Assembly (NCBI RefSeq): GCF_016861785.1
Contig: NZ_BOLS01000001.1
Span: forward strand, 124,001-188,000
DNA from: Lacticaseibacillus mingshuiensis
GTDB lineage: Bacteria > Bacillota > Bacilli > Lactobacillales > Lactobacillaceae
Length of the DNA stretch: 64,000 nt
Direction of reading: 5' to 3'
Shown piece after piece: positions 16,745-56,910 of this stretch (position 1 is the stretch's first letter; each line of letters begins with the position of its first letter). The notes under the pieces were generated by a model, which did not search any database, was not told the origin of the DNA, and saw only the letters and a program-made list of their open reading frames with translations. The position numbers were made by a program, and so were the translations under genes.

Positions 16745-19500
16745 GGTCCTGGACCAATTGGGTGAGGTTAGGTGGGCTTGGCACTGGATTGGAAAGGTGA
16801 TCGGGAAGATTAGGGTGTGCGGGCCACGGGACCGCGGATGTTGATTTTTCCGGACAGAATCGCAACATTCGTGGACCCTGAGTCCGGTTGAGGGAAAATG
16901 CGGCCTTGGTGCGATCTCGGAGATTGCGGATGTGGATTTTTTGCGGGAGAATCCCGTAATTTTCATTCTCAGAGATTGCCTGCCCGGACTGTGGCATCCA
17001 CATTGGTGTGACGCCATCACAAAACTTGATGCCAAGCCGGCCGAGTTTGGCAATCTTTACGGACCACGGGACCGCGGATTTTGAGATTCACGAGCAAAAG
17101 AGCTATATTTGCGGACCGAGAGTCCAGACGATGCTAGATGAGTGTCCCAGTGCGATCTCGGAGATTGCGGATTTGAATTTTCTGCGGGAGAATCCCGTAA
17201 TTTTCAGTCTCGGAGATCGCATCCCCGGACTGCGGTATCCGCATTGGTGTGACACCATCACAAAACTTGATGCCAAGCCGCCCGGGGCGTGCGGACCACG
17301 AGACCGCGGATATTGAGACCGGCGAGCAAAAGAGCCATATTGGCGGACCGTGAGTCCAAGCGATGCTAAATACGTGACCCTGCGTGATCTCAGAGCTTGG
17401 CGATTTTATCTTTCTTCACGGCAATCACGCAATCTGAAGTCCCGGAGATCACATGCCCGGACTGTGGCATCCATATTGGTGTGATGCCATCCCAAAACTT
17501 GGTAACGAGGGTTTAAATTCAGCTATATTTTCGGACCACGGGATCGCGGATTTTGAGAATCAAAGGCAAAAGAGCGATATTTGCGGACCATGAGTCCAGG
17601 CGATGCGAAATACCTAACTCCGTGCGATCTCAGAGATTACCGATTTTGTTTTTCAGCGAGGAAATCACGCATTTTGCAGTCTTAGAGATCACATGCCCGG
17701 ACTGTGGCATCCACATTGGTGTCACGCCATCACAAAACTTGATGCTAAGCCGGCCGAGTTTGGCAATCTTTACGGACCACGGGACCGCGGATGTTGACTT
17801 TTACGAACATAATCGCAACATTCGTGGACCCTGAGTCCGGACGATGCGAGATGGGGGTCCGTGCGATCTCGGAGATTGCCGATTTGATTTTTTTAAGCGG
17901 GAATCCCGCAATTTGCAGTCTCAGATATCGGGCGCGCCCCAATCGTGCCATCAACATTGATGTGATGCCATCCCAAAACTTGACACCCAGAGTCTTGGAA
18001 ATGTCGAAGTTCGCGGACTATCGGTCCAGACAATGCGAGATGCGTGCCCCGATGCGATCTCTGAGATTGCTAATTCGACTCTTCTTCGCTGGAATCCTGC
18101 AATTTGCAGTCTCAGATATCGGGCACGCCCCAATCGTGGCATCAACATTAGTGCGATGCCATCCCAAAACTTGGTGCCCAGCGTATTGGGAATTGCCAAT
18201 CTTCGCGGACCACGAGACCGCGGATGTTGGAATCTACGAGCAAAAGAATCATATTTGCGGACCATGAGTCCAGACGATGCGAGTTGCGTGCTCCGGTGCG
18301 ATCTCTGAGACCGCCGATTTGTGTTTTGATCGCGGGCATCCTGCAATTTGCAATCTCAAAGATCGCACGCCCGAATCGTGGCCTCTACATTAGTGTGATG
18401 CCATCACAAAACTTGATGCCCAGCGTCTTGGAAATGTCGCACTTCGCGGACTACGGGACTGCAGAGGTTGGTATTTCGCGATCAAAAGAGCTACATTTGC
18501 GGACCATGAGTCCAGACGATGTGAGATAGGTGTCCCAGTGCGATCTCGGAGATTGACGATTTGTTTTTTCTGCGCGAAAATCATGCAATTTGCAGTCTCA
18601 GAGATTGCACGCCCGAATCGTGGCATCAGCATTGGTGTGATGCCATCACAAAACTTGATGCTCAGCGTCTGGGGGTGTAGGGTGATGGATAACTCGTGGT
18701 CCGAGAATTTTACCGTTTTTGTCAAAGATGTCGATCTTTTGTGACCGGGAGTCCACCTAAATCTCCTGACGACCCAAAGGATTCGATCTTGGTGTGATGC
18801 CGTCACACGAGTTTCTTTCGGCATGACGAGGGCGTGGGCTTCCCACACCCTGGGTACTTCCAATCGACATCTTTCAAGGTGCTAACGCAATATTTTCATA
18901 CCGGGGGTACGCAACCATGGACTCGTGGTCCGCGAATTTGGACAAGTTTGCCGAATAACTCGAAATTTGCGGACCGCGAATCCATCTGAATCTCCAGACT
19001 CCCTAGGAAACCGGCTTTGAGGTTGGTGTGATACCATCACATAAGTTTGTACGCGGCCCCCGGAAAATCCAGATCCGTGTACATCCAAGCACACCAAGCG
19101 ACATCTTTCGAATGAAAACAACAATACCCGCATAACCGAAGTACGCGAATCGTGATACTTCCACGCCCGGCCGGATATTCTTCAAACGAGTGTGATGCCG
19201 TTACACGACTTTGCTCCGGAGCCTCTGGAAAAACGAGGTCCACATCCCCTGAGTATGCCGATCATGGCACCTCCGCCTGAGCAGCCGCCAAACTTGTGTG
19301 ATGCCATCACACAACGCTGCTTCAGAGGTTTCGGAAAACCGAGAGCCTCGTATCCTGAGTTCGTCAATTGACATCTGCCGGAAGACAACAGCCAGATTCG
19401 CATCCCCGGAGTACGCGGCTCGTGGTACTTTTCCCCGAATACCCTTCAAACTGGTGGGATGCCATCACATCATTTGACGCCACGCCCCGAACTTGAGGAC
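16745..19500. repeat. Palindromic repeat array 1 (about 240-bp units, gene-free)
   Basis: Some 2.75 kb between rqcH and degV without a credible gene. Thirteen copies of a 15-base palindrome, TGTGATGCCATCACA or a close variant, start at 17007, 17248, 17480, 17720, 17961, 18152, 18394, 18636, 18793, 19027, 19191, 19297 and 19455; most intervals are 232-242 bases, those after 18636 are more irregular. Each full unit also carries GGACCACGGGACCGCGG-type and GGACC-N3-GAGTCC-type palindromes and two GATCTC-N-GAGATY palindromes, always in the same order. Units at 17000 and 17715 are nearly identical over about 80 bases, suggesting recent duplication. A partial unit precedes the first copy (16795-16900). 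Confidence 0.9.
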
Positions 19501-44266: not shown

Positions 44267-44377
44267 TGAAAATTGGACGCGCAAGATCTTGGGCGCGCCT
44301 GCGTGAAATAGGATGCACAAGAGCTGGGGCGCGCAAACTGAAATCAGGACGCGCAAAGATCTGCGGCGCGCAGGCGG
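44267..44377. repeat. Three tandem degenerate repeats of 35-39 bases between xerC and hslV
   Basis: Units begin near 44267, 44304 and 44339 with TGAAA, followed by a GGACGCGCAAGATCT-like core and a GGGCGCGC-like segment. A perfect inverted repeat GGCGGAA-TT-TTCCGCC (44373-44388) closes the block. There is no T-run, so transcription can continue from xerC to hslV. Confidence 0.65.
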
Positions 44378-45576: not shown

Positions 45577-45855
45577 TTAGTCATCGTCATCATCGTTAGA
45601 ATTTAAATAGTCCCGTGCCGCTTGAACATCGTTGAACGTAATCCCGTCTCCATCATTGACCGCTTGAACCGCCGCCTCGAGTGGCGAACCCTCAGGTATA
45701 AACGGCAGTTTGTTATCGCGGACAGCTTTAATCAAGAACATATTGATTGCCGTAGACCTGTCTAAGCCCATGCTTTCAAACACCTGAGTCGCGCGACGCT
45801 TCATATCGGGCGTGACCTGGGCTGTCACGGTTGTTTTATTCTCCTTATCATCCAT
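45577..45855 (-). CDS. RelB/DinJ-family antitoxin, apparently without a toxin gene
   Basis: 92 residues. The N-terminal ribbon-helix-helix reads KTTVTAQVTPDMKRRATQVFESMGLDRSTAINMFLIKAV, and the C-terminal part (LPFIPEGSP..) would wrap a toxin; it ends in a run of Asp. GGTGAG precedes ATG 45855. A YafQ/RelE toxin gene would be expected directly downstream (minus strand, below 45577), but only 250 bases without a convincing frame lie before xerC. It may be an orphan regulator or a remnant. Confidence 0.88.
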   Translation of the reverse strand: MDDKENKTTVTAQVTPDMKRRATQVFESMGLDRSTAINMFLIKAVRDNKLPFIPEGSPLEAAVQAVNDGDGITFNDVQAARDYLNSNDDDDD

Positions 45856-46195: not shown

Positions 46196-46954
46196 TCAAT
46201 CTTGTGCATTCGCCTCAACTGCCGCGGCCAGTACCCGCACCGCCCGGTCATCCCCGACCAGCTTCGTGTAATAATCCGCAAACCGCGAATCCTCCAAGTA
46301 CATCTCGACCAGCCCGCGGTGCATCGCCGGATCATACTTGCCCCACATCAACGTCAACCACGCCCGGTGCGCCGCATAGATCCGCTTGGCCACCGGCGAG
46401 TCAGCCGGCGCCTGCGTGGCAAGAGCCTCCTGCAATAACGATCGTAATTGATCTTGCAACCCTTGGGCGCGCGCAAACTGATCCGGCGTCAAGCCCATCA
46501 GCTGCGCATCGGCCTCACGTTTCGCATTTTTCCCATAACGCGCCTCGACCTCGTCGCCATAATCCGCGTCATTTTTCGCAACCATGTCCTTCTTGAACGC
46601 CTGGAATTTCTCTTCATCTGTCATATTTTCCGCCTCGTTTCTGAGGGTCGCCTCGACTTGCGCGATCAATTGCTGAACCTGGGACTGCTTCGCCAAGAGA
46701 TTTTCCCGCTGGTCCCGCAGCGCCGCCACCTGATCAGCTCGCGGTGCATCCAGCAGCGAGCGAATCTCGCCAAGCGGCACCTCCAAGTTGCGATAGAAGA
46801 GGATCTGTTGCATCCGGTCCGCATCCGCACTGGTATAGACCCGGTAGCCATTTTCCTCGACCCGCGGCACCAACAGCCCGACCTCGTGATAATACCGCAG
46901 CGTCCGCTCCGACACCCCGGCCAGCTTCGCAAATTGCTTGATCTTGTAAGTCAT
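46196..46954 (-). CDS. MerR-family regulator with TipAS-like antibiotic-recognition domain
   Basis: 252 residues. The MerR winged helix (about 1-70) starts YKIKQFAKLAGVSERTLRYYHEVGLL, followed by the dimerising coiled coil (about 75-110) and a helical TipAS-type domain (about 120-250), which in TipA binds thiopeptide antibiotics. GAGGTGAG precedes ATG 46954. No transporter or resistance gene is adjacent, so it may regulate only itself or distant targets. Confidence 0.9.
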   Translation of the reverse strand: MTYKIKQFAKLAGVSERTLRYYHEVGLLVPRVEENGYRVYTSADADRMQQILFYRNLEVPLGEIRSLLDAPRADQVAALRDQRENLLAKQSQVQQLIAQVEATLRNEAENMTDEEKFQAFKKDMVAKNDADYGDEVEARYGKNAKREADAQLMGLTPDQFARAQGLQDQLRSLLQEALATQAPADSPVAKRIYAAHRAWLTLMWGKYDPAMHRGLVEMYLEDSRFADYYTKLVGDDRAVRVLAAAVEANAQD

Positions 46955-47149
46955 TTTCTCACCTCATCGAGAAGCTTACGGCCTCACGCCGCGTCAGGGT
47001 CAACAACTTTTGGGAAAATAGAAAGCAAAAGTAGTCCCATTGGTGTTTTCCCCGTCCCGTTTGCGTAACCGGCCACGGGGATGCACCAGTCCACGGCCAC
47101 GAAGTCGCTGAATTCGCCAATATCAGTATGCCACGGCAGCCCCCGTGGC

Positions 47150-49330
47150 GCAGCGTGAAAATAATGTGATGGCGTCACAGCAGGTGCTGACACGGGCGTG
47201 GGCTCAGGGTCCATCAGTTTACCCTATCTCGGTTGTCCGCTCAGCAAATAATGTGATGGCGTCACACTGATCCGGCGCACGCCCAGGTAGATTCTTGGTG
47301 CGCGCGATCTCTGAGAACGAAAATTTTGACAATTCAGCCCGGCAGCGGCAAATCAGCGGTCTCAGAGATCGCGCGATTTCGCAGATGCGCTGATCTTCCG
47401 GTCCACGGGTCCGCGAAATAGACGTTTTTGATCTGAAAAGACGACATCCGCGGTCCACGGGTCCGCACGCCCCCAGAACTCTGGCAAGAAATAGTGTGAT
47501 GGCGTCACACTGATGTAGCGGGTGCTCAGAGAATTCTTGGTTCGGGCGATCTCCGAGACCGCAAATTTCGCCAATTCAACCCGACAGAGGCAAATCGGCG
47601 GTCTCAGAGATTGTGCGATTGCGCAGGTGCCTGATTTTTCGGTCCACGGGTCCGCGAATTAACCTCTCTTGACCTGAAACGACGACATCCGCGGTCCACG
47701 GGTCCGCACGCCCCAGACTTCTGGCAAAAACTAGTGTGATGGCGTGACACCGATGTACCGGTTGTCCGGGAGGGTTGGTGGTTCGGGCGATCTCTGAGAT
47801 CGGAAATCTCGACAATTAAGCACATAAGAAGCAAATCGACGGTCTCAGAGATTGCGTAATTTTCGCAGATGGGGTGAGCTTTCGGTCCACAAGTGGCACG
47901 CCCGGGCCCCCTGTCAGAAAGTTATGTGATGCCATCACACTGATTCGGTGTCCCAACCAAGAATGGCGTCTTGGTACACGTTTTTGTTCCTAGGAAATAC
48001 GAGGCAACCGGCATTCCAGTGTTTATTTGGGCACAACTATCTAACGCACATTCTACGACGATTTCACGATCAATCCATCAGATTCAAAATGAATTCGACC
48101 TTCTAGAGCGAATCTCAGGACCCGATCCATCCTTTAGAAACAGCGGTGTATCAACGTTCCCATTGATTGTTTCTGGATAACTCGATACCGGAGAAGATTG
48201 TCAATCAAGAAATGCCGTTAAATCAACGTTTTATGTGTTAGTAGTGCGTCGCAATCGACGTACCTTAGTCCACCGAATAGAGAAGTCGTTTCGGGCAGAA
48301 CCCTCCGTACGCCCGGGAAAAGCACTAGAAAATAATGTGATGGCATCACACCGTTTTGCTTCGATTCACCCGGACCCCGAGTCCGCAAATGTGCCGATTT
48401 CTCACTACAAACGTCTGATCCGCGGACTATGGGTCCATCACTTTGGACGCCCCCCGGGAATAGTCTGAAAATAATGTGATGACATCACACCGTTTTGCTT
48501 CGATCTCCCCTGGACCCCGAGTCCACAGATGTGCCGATTTCTCACTACAAACGTCTGATCCGCGGACTATGGGTCCATAATTTTGGGCAAGTCCCTGGAA
48601 ATAGAATGATATTAATGTGATGGCATCACACCGGTTTGCTTCGATTCGCCCGGACCCGGAGTCCGCAAATGTGCCGATTTTTCACTACAAACGTCTGATC
48701 CGCGGACTCAGGGTCCATGACTTGGGCAAGCCCCAAGGAATAGCCTGAAATCAATGTGATGGCATCACACCGATTTGCTTCGATCTCATGGACCCCGAGT
48801 CCGCAAATGTGCGAAGCTCTCACTAAAAACGTCTGATTCGCGGACTCAGGGTCCATAAGTTTGGGCAAGTCCCCTGGGAATAAACTGATATTAATGTGAT
48901 GGCATCACACCGGTTTGCTTCGATCTCATGGGCCCCGAGTCCACAAATGTGCAAAGCAATCACTAAAAAATGTCAGATTCGCGGACTCAGGGTCCATGAC
49001 TTTGGGCAAGCCCCCCGGGAATAGCCTGAAAATAATGTGATGGCATCACACTGGTTTACTTCGATCTCCACCGAGTCCGCAAATGTGCTGACTTCTCACT
49101 ACAAGCGTCAGATCCGCGGACTCTGGGTCCATAATTTGGGGCAAGCCCCTGGGAATAGACTCATAATAATGTGATGGCATCACACCGGTTTGCTTCGATC
49201 TCCCGGACCCCGAGTCCGCAAATGTGCGAAGTCCTCACTAAAAACGGCAGATCCGCGGACTCAGGGTCCATGACTTTGGGCACGCCACGGGCAATAGCCT
49301 GAAAATAATGTGATGGCATCACACCAGTTC
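47150..49330. repeat. Palindromic repeat array 2 (240-bp and 140-bp units, gene-free)
   Basis: The 15-base palindrome TGTGATGGCATCACA or a close variant starts at 47165, 47252, 47495, 47735, 47935, 48336, 48475, 48616, 48755, 48895, 49036, 49170 and 49309. The first part repeats at about 240 bases and, on the minus strand, shows the same order of secondary palindromes as array 1. The second part (48336-49323) has seven units of 134-141 bases, each with GGACCCCGAGTCC, then AAATGTGC.., then GGACTCAGGGTCC. Units of the second part differ at only a few positions. 47950-48330 is a less repetitive, AT-richer interval. No credible gene overlaps. Confidence 0.92.
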
Positions 49331-49350
49331 CGCACGCCTTAATTAGAAAG

Positions 49351-49389
49351 AAAAATGCCCACGTCGCCGATTCGCAACGTGGGCATTTT
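49351..49389. terminator. Terminator of the DUF6176-like gene
   Basis: AAATGCCCACGT and ACGTGGGCATTT arms with a 12-base loop, T-rich on both sides; it also separates the gene from array 2. Confidence 0.85.
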
Positions 49390-49394
49390 CCAGA

Positions 49395-49721
49395 TCATGG
49401 TTGGGCGCGAAAGGAATTCTCGAGCGCAAATTTGATGCTTGGCACCGACTCGTCAATGCATTCCTGCCAAAATGCGACATGCATCCGATCGACGGAAGCG
49501 GCAGACGCGGTCACATCGGCGCCGCCATCCTCGCCATCCGTGTACCAACAGAGATACAAACGCCCCGCCAGCTCAAACGAAAAGATCTGTTCGACCCGCA
49601 AGTGCTCGCCGGCCAACGTTGCATCGACCGCCGATTGATTTTTGCGAAGGAATCGCATCCATTCCCGAGCACGTTCTCGTTTATCGGACTTCACCGCGAA
49701 TCCTTCCAGCTCGATCACCAA
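49395..49721 (-). CDS. DUF6176-like small protein
   Basis: 108 residues with a ferredoxin-like alpha-beta pattern: MVIELEGFAVKSDKRERAREWMRFL, then VEQIFSFELAGRLYLCWYTDGE and MHVAFWQECIDES. The family resembles small dimeric alpha-beta barrel proteins; its role is not known. The start at 49721 lacks a strong ribosome-binding site in the minus strand (GGAGGCG at about 12 bases). It is followed by a strong terminator. Confidence 0.7.
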   Translation of the reverse strand: MVIELEGFAVKSDKRERAREWMRFLRKNQSAVDATLAGEHLRVEQIFSFELAGRLYLCWYTDGEDGGADVTASAASVDRMHVAFWQECIDESVPSIKFALENSFRAQP

Positions 49722-49895: not shown

Positions 49896-51227
49896 TCACT
49901 GCGCGGTTTCTACCGCAACGTCGGCATTGGCGGTCGGCAAGAACCCATCAAGCGTCGCCAAAGCCCGGTCCGCCAAGGCTTGATTGCGCTCGCGTTTGTC
50001 CTTGATGCGGGTCGGAAGCGCAGGCATGATGCCGAAGTTTGCGTTCATCGGCTGGAAATGCTTGGCGTCCGTGTGCGTGATGTAGTGCGCCATCGCGCCG
50101 ATCTGCGTGTCATCCGGGAACGTCAACGCGTCCAGCCCCTGCGCCAGCCGCGCCGCATTGATTCCCGCAACCAAGCCGGAACCCGCGGACTCAACGTACC
50201 CTTCGACCCCAGTCATTTGCCCGGCGAAAAATAATCCCGAACGACGGGTACTTTCGTAGGTATCTTTTAACACAACAGGCGCATTCATATAAGTATTTCG
50301 ATGCATCACGCCGTAACGGACGATCACCGCATTTTCCAGACCAGGAATCATGCGGAACACGCGCTTTTGCTCGCCCCACTTGAGATGCGTCTGGAAGCCG
50401 ACAATATTGTAGAGGCTTGCCGCCGCATTGTCCTGCCGCAGTTGAACCACCGCATACGGATCGCGGCCGGTGCGCGGATTCGCCAGCCCGACCGGCTTCA
50501 GTGGGCCAAACAGCATCGTGCGTTCGCCGCGCTTGGCCATCACTTCGATCGGCATGCAGCCTTCGAAGACAGTCAAATTTTCAAAATCATGCCCTTCGGC
50601 GACTTCGGCATTGACCAATTCCCGCTGGAACGCGAAAAATTGATCGCGGTCCATTGGGCAATTGAGGTACGCCGCCTCGCCCTTGTCGTAGCGCGACTTC
50701 TTGTAGACGATGTCCATGTCGATGGAGTTCGCATCGAGAATTGGTGCGGCCGCATCGAAAAAGTGCAGGCCGTCTTCGCCATTCAGCGCAACGATCGCCT
50801 CCGCCATTTTCGGCGCGGTCAAAGGACCCGTCGCCACCACCGTGATGCCATCCGGAATGGTCTCGACCGCTTCTTCGATCACATGGATGCGGGGATGCGA
50901 CCGCAGCGTTTTCGTTACCAACGCGGAAAATGGCTCGCGGTCCACCGCCAGGGCGCCGCCAGCCGGGACAGCCGTAGCGTCGGCCGCCGTCATGATCACA
51001 GAATTCAACCGCCGCATCTCTTCCTTCAGCAGGCCGACGCCGTTCGTCACGCTATTTGCGCGCAGCGAATTGGTGCAGACCAGCTCGGCAAACTGGTCCG
51101 TGTGGTGCGCCGGAGTCGTTTGCTTGGGCCTCATCTCATAAAGGTTCACATCCACGCCGCGGCTGGCGATCTGCCAAGCGGCTTCACTGCCGGCCAAGCC
51201 GGCGCCGATCACGTTCACAGTGGTCAT
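49896..51227 (-). CDS. trmFO: Methylenetetrahydrofolate--tRNA-(uracil-5-)-methyltransferase TrmFO
   Basis: Folate- and FAD-dependent enzyme that makes 5-methyluridine at position 54 of tRNA. The FAD-binding motif [13 protein letters not shown] is near the N-terminus; [24 protein letters not shown] and [20 protein letters not shown] are hallmarks. ATG 51227 ([10 protein letters not shown]) has AAGGAGG 7 bases upstream and gives 443 residues. It often stands near topA and xerC in Firmicutes, as it does loosely here. Confidence 0.95.
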
Positions 51228-51328
51228 TGCCATTCCTCCTTGAAAATCTGATTGCAATCATGATACACCAATTCGAATGATGGCGCTTTAATAAATCGTT
51301 TAAAACAGATTAACCCGTCGCCATTTTT

Positions 51329-54327: not shown

Positions 54328-56409
54328 TCAGCTCTTCGCCACAGCCTCTTTATAATCATTATTCGGGCAGACGACCTGCATGCCGCCGCGCCCGCGCTTT
54401 TCGACCAGATAGTGGCCGCAGACCGGGCAATCACGGCCGACCGGTTTGTCCCAGGCGACGAAATCGCAGTCCGGATAGCGCGAACAGCCATAGAACGTGC
54501 GGTTGCGCTTGGATTTGCGCTCGACCAGCTGGCCGATGCCACACTTCGGGCACACCACGCCGATCTCCTTGACCACCGCCTTGGTGTTGCGGCAATCCGG
54601 GAAGCGCGAGCAGGCGTAGAACTTGCCGAAGCGACCCATTTTGACCACCATCGGCGCACCGCAGACATCGCAGTCAAAGCCGGCCGGTTCGTCCTTCATC
54701 TGAATCTTTTCGATTCCGACCTCGGCCTTGGCGACTTCCTTGGCAAACGGCTTGTAGAACTCGTCCACGATCGGGACCCAGTCAGCCTTGCCCGTTTCGA
54801 TTGCATCGAGCTCGCCCTCGACCTTCGCCGTGAACTTGATATCCACGACATCTGGGAAAAATTCTTTGATCAGCGAATTGACGATCTCACCCAGCTCCGT
54901 CGGCTCAAACCGGCGGGCGGTCAGCTTCACATAGTAACGCTTTTGAATCGTCTCGATCGTTGGCGCATACGTAGACGGCCGACCGACACCATTTTCTTCC
55001 AGCGCCTTGACCAGGTTCGCTTCGGAATAGCGGGCAGGCGGCTGGGTGAAATGCTGCGCCGGATCAGTCTTCACCAGCTTGACCGCGTCCCCGATCGCAA
55101 GCTCCGGCAAAAGGTTCTCCTTCTCGCCGTCATCGCGACTCGACACGTAAAGCGTGGTGAACCCGGGGAACTTCGTGTGGCTCCCGTTGGCGCGGAAGGT
55201 CGCACCGTTTTGCTCGATCGTCACCGCCACCGTGTCGACCACGGCCGGCGTCATTTCACTGGCGACGAAGCGATTCCAGATGAGCTGGTACAACTTCATC
55301 TGGTCCTTGTCCAAAACAGATTCCAGACTCTTCGGCGTGCGCAGGGTGGACGTCGGGCGAATCGCTTCATGGGCGTCTTGGGCGCCTTCCTGCAATTTAC
55401 CCTGACGAATTTTCACAGCGGCGTAGGCCTCGCCATAGACCTCATGGATGAACTTGGACGTCTCGGCCTTCGCGACACTCGACACACGCGTCGAATCGGT
55501 ACGCATGTAGGTGATCAGCCCGGTCGTGCCTTCCTTGCCGCCAAGATTGATGCCTTCATAAAGCTGCTGGGCCAGCATCATCGTCTTGCGCGTGCGGAAG
55601 TTCAGCTTGCGGTTGGCCTCCTGCTGCAGGGAACTCGTGGTGAAAGGCGGCGCCGGATAACGGTTGCGCTCCTTCTTCACGACATTCGTGATGGCAAACG
55701 GCTTCTTCTTGTCGATCTGCTTGAGCACGTCCTGGACCGCGGCGTTATCCTTCAGATCCATCTTCTTATTATTCAGCCCGTAAAAACTCGCGGCAAACTT
55801 CGCGGTCCCCTTTTGGAACTCCGCATCCAAGGACCAGTATTCTTCCGGCTTGAAATTGCGGATCTCCTCTTCGCGGTCAATGATCAGCTTCAGCGCAACA
55901 GATTGCACGCGCCCCGCGGACAGCCCCTTCTTCACCTTTTTCCAAAGAAGCGGCGAGATCGAATAGCCGACCAGCCGATCCAAAATACGGCGGGCCTGCT
56001 GGGCATCGACCAGGTTCATATCGATACTGCGCGGCGACTTGAACGCGTTTTTCACCGCGTCCTTCGTGATCTCGTTGAACACCACGCGGTTCTTGGCGGT
56101 CGGATCGAGCCCGAGAATGTGACTGACATGCCACGCGATGGCTTCCCCTTCACGGTCCGGATCGGCTGCGAGATAAATATTGTCGGCTTTGGCGGCCTCT
56201 TTGCGAAGCTCCTTGATCACATCGCCCTTACCGCGAATAGAAATATACTTTGGCTCATAATTATTATCAACGTCGACACCCATTTGGGACTTGGGCAAGT
56301 CGCGGATATGACCGAGGCTGGCGACGACCCTGAACGAGCGCCCCAGATACTTCTCGATAGTTTTGGCTTTTGCTGGCGATTCCACAATGACCAGATTCTT
56401 GGCGGCCAT
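54328..56409 (-). CDS. topA: DNA topoisomerase I
   Basis: Type IA topoisomerase that relaxes negative supercoils. The Toprim acidic motif is DPDREGE at 83-89, the nucleophile is Tyr301 in [10 protein letters not shown], and three C-terminal zinc-ribbon modules follow ([30 protein letters not shown]). 693 residues. ATG 56409 has AAGGAGGG upstream. It lies upstream of nothing on its strand; dprA, usually directly before topA in this group, is here separated from it by the HAD gene and a spacer. Confidence 0.96.
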
Positions 56410-56910
56410 GTGCGCCCTCCTTCCTGCGAGCGAGCTGCTCGAAAACACCAAACATCATAAAGCCCCGGTTCGCGCTTTGTCAAACATCTGATTCTGTTTC
56501 TTCTATTATACAGCGTCTATTCAGGTCGTTTTCAGGGGAAAATAGGCCGCCACCCGCTGGCCACGGCGCAGCAAACAGGCCCCGTCCCAGCAGGCTTTTC
56601 AGCTAGTTTGGGGATCGTGGTTCCGGGCGGCTGGTGCGGCTCGAAAAATTTAGTTGACTCGCGCCTGATATTTTGCCGGCCCCCATTGGTGGTGGGACCC
56701 GGGCGATGCGGAGACTCGTGCGGCTTACCCCAACAGAATGGCTCGCCGCCTATTGCCCAACCGCACCTAAATAGAATTGATCGCCACATATTGCCCAACC
56801 TCATAACTAGCAAGCCGCAAAATACCAGGCAGCACACCCCCATATTTGATAGCCACATATTGCCCAGCATGAGATACTGACATTAGGAATTCAATTTGCA
56901 GGAGGCCAAC
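56410..56910. other. Structured intergenic region between topA and the HAD gene
   Basis: About 500 bases without a gene. On the minus strand TATAATAGAAGAAAC (TATAAT at 56520-56515) probably belongs to the topA promoter. GCCGCCTATTGCCCAAC (about 56749), GCCACATATTGCCCAAC (about 56783) and GCCACATATTGCCCAGC (about 56851) are three copies of one motif, and GGGAAAATAGGCCGCC (56535) resembles its complement. Confidence 0.6.

Follow-up and report, generated by a model that had tools for sequence, protein, structure and literature searches.

Helically phased palindrome arrays in a Lacticaseibacillus genome as probable cooperative operators of dedicated TetR-like proteins

Phased palindrome arrays and adjoining TetR-like genes

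Palindromic sites of a few families recur in arrays on the chromosome of a Lacticaseibacillus strain (genome G000, 2.76 Mb in 56 contigs), where they are spaced in helical phase, are constrained in sequence, and in two cases adjoin a gene for a TetR-like protein. The reading that we favor, as moderately probable, is that dedicated TetR-like proteins bind these arrays cooperatively as operators, for a role more likely to lie in structuring the chromosome than in regulating neighboring genes. The analysis started from a 64-kb stretch of DNA, C1:124001-188000, referred to here as the window; positions without a contig or locus name are those of the window.

Array 2 contains two repeat architectures

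Four families of odd-centered palindromes make up the arrays: P1 (TGTGATGNCATCACA), P2 (GGAC-N5-GTCC), P3 (ATCTCNGAGAT), and P5 (GCRTAC-N5-GTAYGC; 24 exact copies in G000). With exact P5 sites, no array made of P5 only was found. The window holds two arrays of the same type, and the features of array 2 are as follows.

47165..49323, no strand: array 2, 13 P1 palindromes with P2 and P3 pairs in between
47165..47939, no strand: 240-bp section of array 2
48336..49323, no strand: 140-bp section of array 2, seven units
47165..47179, no strand: P1, TGTGATGGCGTCACA
47252..47266, no strand: P1, TGTGATGGCGTCACA
47495..47509, no strand: P1, TGTGATGGCGTCACA
47735..47749, no strand: P1, TGTGATGGCGTGACA, two mismatches
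47925..47939, no strand: P1, TGTGATGCCATCACA
48336..48350, no strand: P1, TGTGATGGCATCACA
48475..48489, no strand: P1, TGTGATGACATCACA
48616..48630, no strand: P1, TGTGATGGCATCACA
48755..48769, no strand: P1, TGTGATGGCATCACA
48895..48909, no strand: P1, TGTGATGGCATCACA
49036..49050, no strand: P1, TGTGATGGCATCACA
49170..49184, no strand: P1, TGTGATGGCATCACA
49309..49323, no strand: P1, TGTGATGGCATCACA
47307..47369, no strand: P3 pair, one mismatch in the first copy, center distance 52 bp
47549..47611, no strand: P3 pair, center distance 52 bp
47790..47852, no strand: P3 pair, center distance 52 bp
47400..47464, no strand: P2-like pair, two copies of GGTCCACGGGTCC (one mismatch to P2) in the same orientation, center distance 52 bp
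47641..47705, no strand: P2-like pair of the same-direction GGTCCACGGGTCC kind, center distance 52 bp
48372..48436, no strand: P2 inverted pair, center distance 52 bp
48512..48576, no strand: P2 inverted pair, center distance 52 bp
48652..48716, no strand: P2 inverted pair, center distance 52 bp
48790..48854, no strand: P2 inverted pair, center distance 52 bp
48930..48995, no strand: P2 inverted pair, one mismatch in the first copy, center distance 53 bp
49118..49130, no strand: single P2, its partner partly deleted in that 140-bp unit
49205..49269, no strand: P2 inverted pair, center distance 52 bp
16821..19469, no strand: array 1, same array type, sites in opposite strand order
46196..46954, minus strand: MerR/TipAS-type regulator adjoining array 2 (Pfam)
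49896-51257, minus strand: TrmFO-like ORF on the other flank of array 2, named by eye from ORF lists

A first-pass annotation, made by a model from the letters of the window, had listed 13 palindromes here, and all were recovered as P1-like sites between 47165 and 49323, nine exact to TGTGATGNCATCACA, three with one mismatch, and one with two. When up to two mismatches are allowed, the whole 64-kb window has 26 P1-like sites, whereas 100 shuffled versions had 0.24 on average. The first full unit of the 240-bp section reads P1-53-P3-52-P3-42-P2-52-P2-44-P1 (numbers are center distances in bp), with a TRF period of 241 across 47246-47890; the architecture of array 1 had been recognized in this part, and its site order is indeed the same, read on the other strand. 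The 140-bp section follows the order P1-35-P2-52-P2-52-P1, and its eight P1 sites (48336-49323) start 134 to 141 bp apart, as had been noted. Many P2 sites carry a C.A or T.G mismatch at the edge of the five central bases (48372-49269; L020:8324-9757), and since this mismatch is mirrored between the two members of a pair, each P2 site has a direction.

The 140-bp units had further been described as nearly identical, each holding GGACCCCGAGTCC and GGACTCAGGGTCC, and the identity of neighbors had been read as recent amplification. Mean pairwise identity of the seven units is only 84%, and each of the two sequences is present exactly in four of the seven units but not in all, one unit being without part of GGACCCCGAGTCC. 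Because adjacent and non-adjacent unit pairs are equally similar (84.4% versus 84.4%), neighbor-to-neighbor recent amplification is not evident. The suggestion that the array is actively evolving held up better: arrays do change, and that of the sister genome, G027, is much shorter at two orthologous places. Array length at orthologous places differs, at C7:49k for example by about 2.2 kb in favor of G000.

The finding by which the annotation would have been refuted, palindromes no better conserved than the flanking bases, was not obtained: palindromes are better conserved than spacers. Column agreement across the seven 140-bp units is 96.7% in palindromes versus 87.6% in spacers, with the P1 at both unit ends counted twice, and 47 of 56 palindrome columns versus 57 of 98 spacer columns are invariant; out of 154 circular shifts, counting the unshifted arrangement, one gives as strong a contrast. 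The same tendency holds between species. Over six segments orthologous between G000 and G027, differences affect 19 of 380 bases in sites and 198 of 1612 in spacers (Fisher P = 1.4e-5), where sites were defined by a motif match in either genome, which favors low site divergence.

The MerR/TipAS-type regulator next to array 2 is not thought to be the binder of the sites. Its closest relative among those found is in Lacticaseibacillus yichunensis 33-1 (98% identity), which places G000 near that species. A RelB-type antitoxin ORF lies near its gene (45577-45855), and a 36-bp repeat of about 2.9 copies lies between two ORFs at 44270-44372. Array 1 is flanked by FbpA-like and DegV-like ORFs, named by eye. 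A long ORF at 54328-56451, judged topoisomerase-like by eye, contains a tRNA-Arg predicted on the minus strand (54599-54696), which is probably a false positive.

Arrays recur around the chromosome in two related species

Sixteen arrays with three or more sites lie in the G000 stretches scanned, for a total of 329 sites; the two smallest have three sites each. In G000, exact P1 sites number 35, matches to TGTGAYGNCRTCACA 80, and sites within one mismatch of P1 95, while the P1 pattern read backwards had no match. Odd-centered palindromes (six pairs) reach 2.47 per kb in array regions versus 0.27 outside, about nine times denser, and even-centered ones 0.16 versus 0.37 per kb, a contrast that is descriptive because array regions were drawn round known sites.

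The arrays have a narrow distribution. Exact P1 was found in 6 of 30 genus genomes (35 in G000, 8 in G027, and one in each of four others). Of 397 Lactobacillaceae genomes, three have a P3 pair at 52 bp (up to two mismatches), with 44 such pairs in G000, 30 in G027, and 1 in G122, and a 1-kb array query had matches in G000 and G027 only, among the 30 genus genomes. Among viral contigs, 118 stretches carry the exact P1 pattern and 5 the P3 pair, but chance matches to a 14-base pattern are expected in so large a collection. Several G027 contigs start or end in arrays (L032, L033, L038, L039, L182, L183, and L184), so short-read assemblies may hide such arrays.

According to simple ORF calls in G000, the flanking genes are divergent at array 1 and C1:74k, co-directional at array 2, and convergent at C3:44k, C7:115k, and C26. 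With arrays between genes of all three arrangements, promoter control of neighbors is unlikely to be their main role. The arrays were placed on the chromosome by way of ten proteins encoded next to arrays or sites, which were located on G019, where dnaA stands at the start of the contig. Five of the nine mapped arrays lie within 250 kb of the origin antipode of G019 (P = 0.009), or three of six when counted by contig (P = 0.06); with C18, which flanks a single P1 site in G000, the counts become 6 of 10 and 4 of 7. Since that range was chosen afterwards and the gene order of G000 was assumed to be similar, these counts give only a hint of a weak bias to the replication antipode.

Site centers lie mostly on one face of the helix

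The 19 array regions analyzed, 13 from G000 and 6 from G027, supplied the spacings, which were measured between neighboring sites closer than 120 bp. The center distance is 52 bp in 65 of 69 P3-P3 cases and 55 of 57 P2-P2 cases; P5 neighbors, counted separately with up to two mismatches, are at this value in 25 of 35 cases. Neighbors of different families are mostly about 41 to 45 or 50 to 54 bp apart, some 34 to 36 bp, and the same junction occurs in two lengths, 43 and 53, about ten bases apart.

For the phase test, repeats of the same distance and ordered type within an array were reduced to one value, and P2-P2 and P3-P3 pairs were left out. The remaining 186 spacings gave a best period of 10.50 bp (phase 0.04, R = 0.51) that none of 20,000 random sets reached, although many of them are not independent, because duplication links the units to one another and the set combines orthologous arrays from both genomes. 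Control odd dyads outside arrays gave an R of 0.11 (n = 259). Taken alone, G000 (13 regions, n = 151) gave an R of 0.50, reached by 0 of 20,000 random sets, and G027 (6 regions, n = 35) an R of 0.56 at a best period of 10.25, reached by 1 of 20,000. Two subsets behave differently. P1-P1 spacings (n = 32) fit 11.1 bp (R = 0.60) better than 10.5 bp (R = 0.46), and those upstream of the gene for TetR-A, described below, are often 36 to 37 bp, or 3.5 turns. The arrays next to the TetR-B gene have a best period of 12.9 and do not single out 10.5 bp, because nearly all their intervals are 52 to 53. Spacings at multiples of 10.5 bp place the centers mostly on one helix face, an arrangement that suggests DNA-bound proteins in register.

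Two TetR-like genes lie in or beside palindrome arrays

An ORF inside the array at C7:91k encodes a probable TetR-type protein, TetR-A. Twelve P1 sites, counted with up to two mismatches, lie upstream of it (L025:8729-9265), and downstream P1 is mixed with P5 and P2. A homologue, TetR-B, is encoded at C1:203727-204395, about 16 kb beyond the window, and has an orthologue in G027 (98% identity). All the sites beside it are of the P2 family, and exact copies number 15 in G000 and 25 in G027; with one mismatch allowed, its array has 23 P2-like sites in G000 and 34 in G027, nearly all 52 to 53 bp apart. Among 30 of the 36 TetR_N loci of G000, only TetR-A and TetR-B have P1, P2, P3, or P5 within 1.5-kb flanks. 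The ordinary TetR loci L189 and L191 have three similar palindromes each that belong to none of these families; those at L191:2400-2650 (C7:130k) are odd-centered and 123 to 127 bp apart.

Assignment to the family differs in strength among the proteins. Against the curated Pfam cutoff of 24 bits for TetR_N, TetR-A scores 23.2 bits as an extended ORF and 26.9 bits in the genome search, and TetR-B scores 19.6 and 22.2 bits, below the cutoff. The predicted model of TetR-B has low confidence (pLDDT of 54; 70 to 81 in the HTH part), and its 50 listed Foldseek matches, TetR-type as far as named, are weak, none of those listed having an E value of 0.001 or below.

TetR-A and TetR-B are 31 to 32% identical and have in common the C-terminal tail GLRQPRRP, which may be a docking motif. 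ORFs ending in this tail are found at L025:9407-10044, L178:9725-10396, and L179:9436-10107. Between G000 and G027 the TetR-B tail shows two base differences, both synonymous, in keeping with selection on the peptide. The 24 coding bases were also considered as a DNA element and rejected as such, their matches (up to three mismatches, in the loci scanned) being the TetR genes themselves.

Strong homologues of TetR-A or TetR-B (E < 1e-20) occur in G000 and G027 only, among the 30 genus genomes, and these are the two with arrays. Weaker matches in the genus were found in G013 (best E = 3e-10), G014, and G001, and 34 of 397 Lactobacillaceae genomes have a match at an E value of ≤1e-5, mostly to the N-terminal part. 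The genus search did not detect TetR-A in G027 despite the P1 sites there, and a TetR partner turned up for neither P3 nor P5.

An independent gene-array pair in a third species

The flanks of TetR homologues in other genomes were checked for at least three similar palindromes. G013 provides an independent case. Its distant TetR gene (C2:303690-304319; 32.3 bits against TetR_N) adjoins a different, unrelated palindrome, TGACGCGTNACGCGTCA, with 20 sites in G013 at one mismatch and none in the other 29 genus genomes. The unit lengths of its clusters (51 to 53, 72 to 75, 95, 104 to 105, and 114 to 116 bp; sites with up to four mismatches) are near whole helical turns, about 5, 7, 9, 10, and 11, and the 14 distinct lengths gave an R of 0.85 at 10.5, a value that none of 20,000 random sets attained. 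Two of the clusters have convergent ORFs as their nearest neighbors. Two other G013 homologues have no tandem array in long surrounding stretches, and their flagged palindrome sets are scattered.

Nine of 30 loci in the first set were flagged. Two are TetR-B itself and two (L221 and L222) have 39-bp palindromes; the sets at L225, L229, L234, L245, and L247 are A+T-rich or scattered and were judged to be chance. The second set had 11 loci: the G013 gene and its array (L255), the 39-bp cases again (L260 and L261), one locus with three scattered sites (L264), and seven in which none were seen. In the 39-bp cases, which belong to another genus, three to four even palindromes of the TGGAAGTATA(C/G)TTCCA-like type lie upstream of the gene (L221:1253-1370 and L222:1249-1366) at a distance that is not a whole number of turns.

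Proposed mechanism and alternatives

We propose that dedicated TetR-family dimers bind the arrays, with successive palindromes mostly facing the same side of the DNA. That the named proteins bind the sites can be proposed with good confidence: TetR-A would most likely bind P1 and TetR-B P2, while P3 and P5 may be bound by paralogues not found here or may be variants of P2. We infer that the arrays function as cooperative units, in which bound dimers would touch neighbors four to five turns away and so build a cooperative nucleoprotein stretch. Its likeliest role would be in structuring or marking the chromosome, in the manner of a nucleoid-associated or occlusion-type system, and not in the control of adjacent genes, given that arrays lie between genes of all orientations and are scattered round the chromosome. 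This role is put forward less firmly than binding, as a serious possibility short of a probable one. With about the same reserve, the arrays may be taken to represent a new chromosome-organizing class, in which lineage-specific TetR-like proteins, each with an array of its own palindrome beside the gene, would seed helically phased mixed arrays over the chromosome, where different protein species would assemble in a set order at set distances; each lineage would reinvent the palindrome and keep the phasing rule.

A simpler account is that the proteins are autorepressors whose own operators have multiplied, the dispersed arrays being decoys or fossils of no chromosomal role that keep phase by whole-unit copying. 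It agrees with the position of the TetR genes beside their presumed operators and with the homology of units within and between arrays, and the three to four palindromes at 39 bp upstream of the other-genus homologue are a possible starting point. Unit copying, however, would not be expected to yield the G013 intervals, where classes of about 5, 7, 9, 10, and 11 turns are each near phase, and the greater conservation of sites than of spacers between species also argues against this account, which we regard as rather unlikely.

A mobile element of the MITE or REP/BIME kind, spreading non-coding cassettes, might instead have the palindromes as its ends or targets. Such an element would be expected to leave dispersed copies between genes, pairs with a fixed spacing, and arrays that differ in size at orthologous loci. 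Yet two in-array ORFs run against Pfam are a TetR-like protein and an acetyltransferase, with no transposase, array 2 had no match in phage or plasmid collections, and mobility leaves the 10.5-bp phasing unexplained; we consider this origin improbable. Transcription of the array into a structured RNA of hairpins is more improbable still. Inverted pairs could form stems of 13 to 26 bp, but Rfam gave no match at gathering score in 16000-50000, and the two subthreshold hits in 47000-49450 (E = 0.0026 and 0.86), to plastid and microRNA models, were judged to be chance. Phasing between different palindrome families is, moreover, a property of DNA.

Relation to known chromosome-organizing and multi-operator systems

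The closest parallels in E. coli are SlmA, a TetR-family protein of nucleoid occlusion with palindromic sites dispersed on the chromosome, and MatP, which acts at matS in the Ter macrodomain. According to a review, the SlmA site is GTGAGTACTCAC, with 50 sites in E. coli and none in Ter; matS, GTGAC(A/G)N(T/C)GTCAC, is a 13-bp palindrome found 23 times in Ter; and the two have identical outer four bases (PMC3116907). P1 has the outer GTGA...TCAC in common with both. The differences from SlmA are the dense phased arrays, the several palindrome families, and the location of some arrays near the predicted terminus; sites are not absent from there, given the five of nine mapped arrays close to the G019 antipode, if the gene order of G000 is similar, and TetR-A scores 13.2 bits against the SlmA sequence model, whose cutoff is 120. 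As for matS, none of 187 P1-like sites matches its full consensus, GTGACRNYGTCAC, and the candidate binders here are TetR-like.

A search of the open-access literature returned, among the matches listed, no natural arrays of tens of phased TetR-like operators repeated over a chromosome. In multi-operator TetR regulators of the EthR type, the regulator lies beside palindromic operators that are bound cooperatively, usually in one operator region at the promoter. Here, in contrast, 12 to 34 sites adjoin the gene and about 330 sites are spread over the 16 arrays of G000. If confirmed, this would be a Firmicutes system where chromosome structure may be a target of TetR proteins. Laboratories insert operator arrays to tag DNA, and the arrays described here would be a natural counterpart of those.
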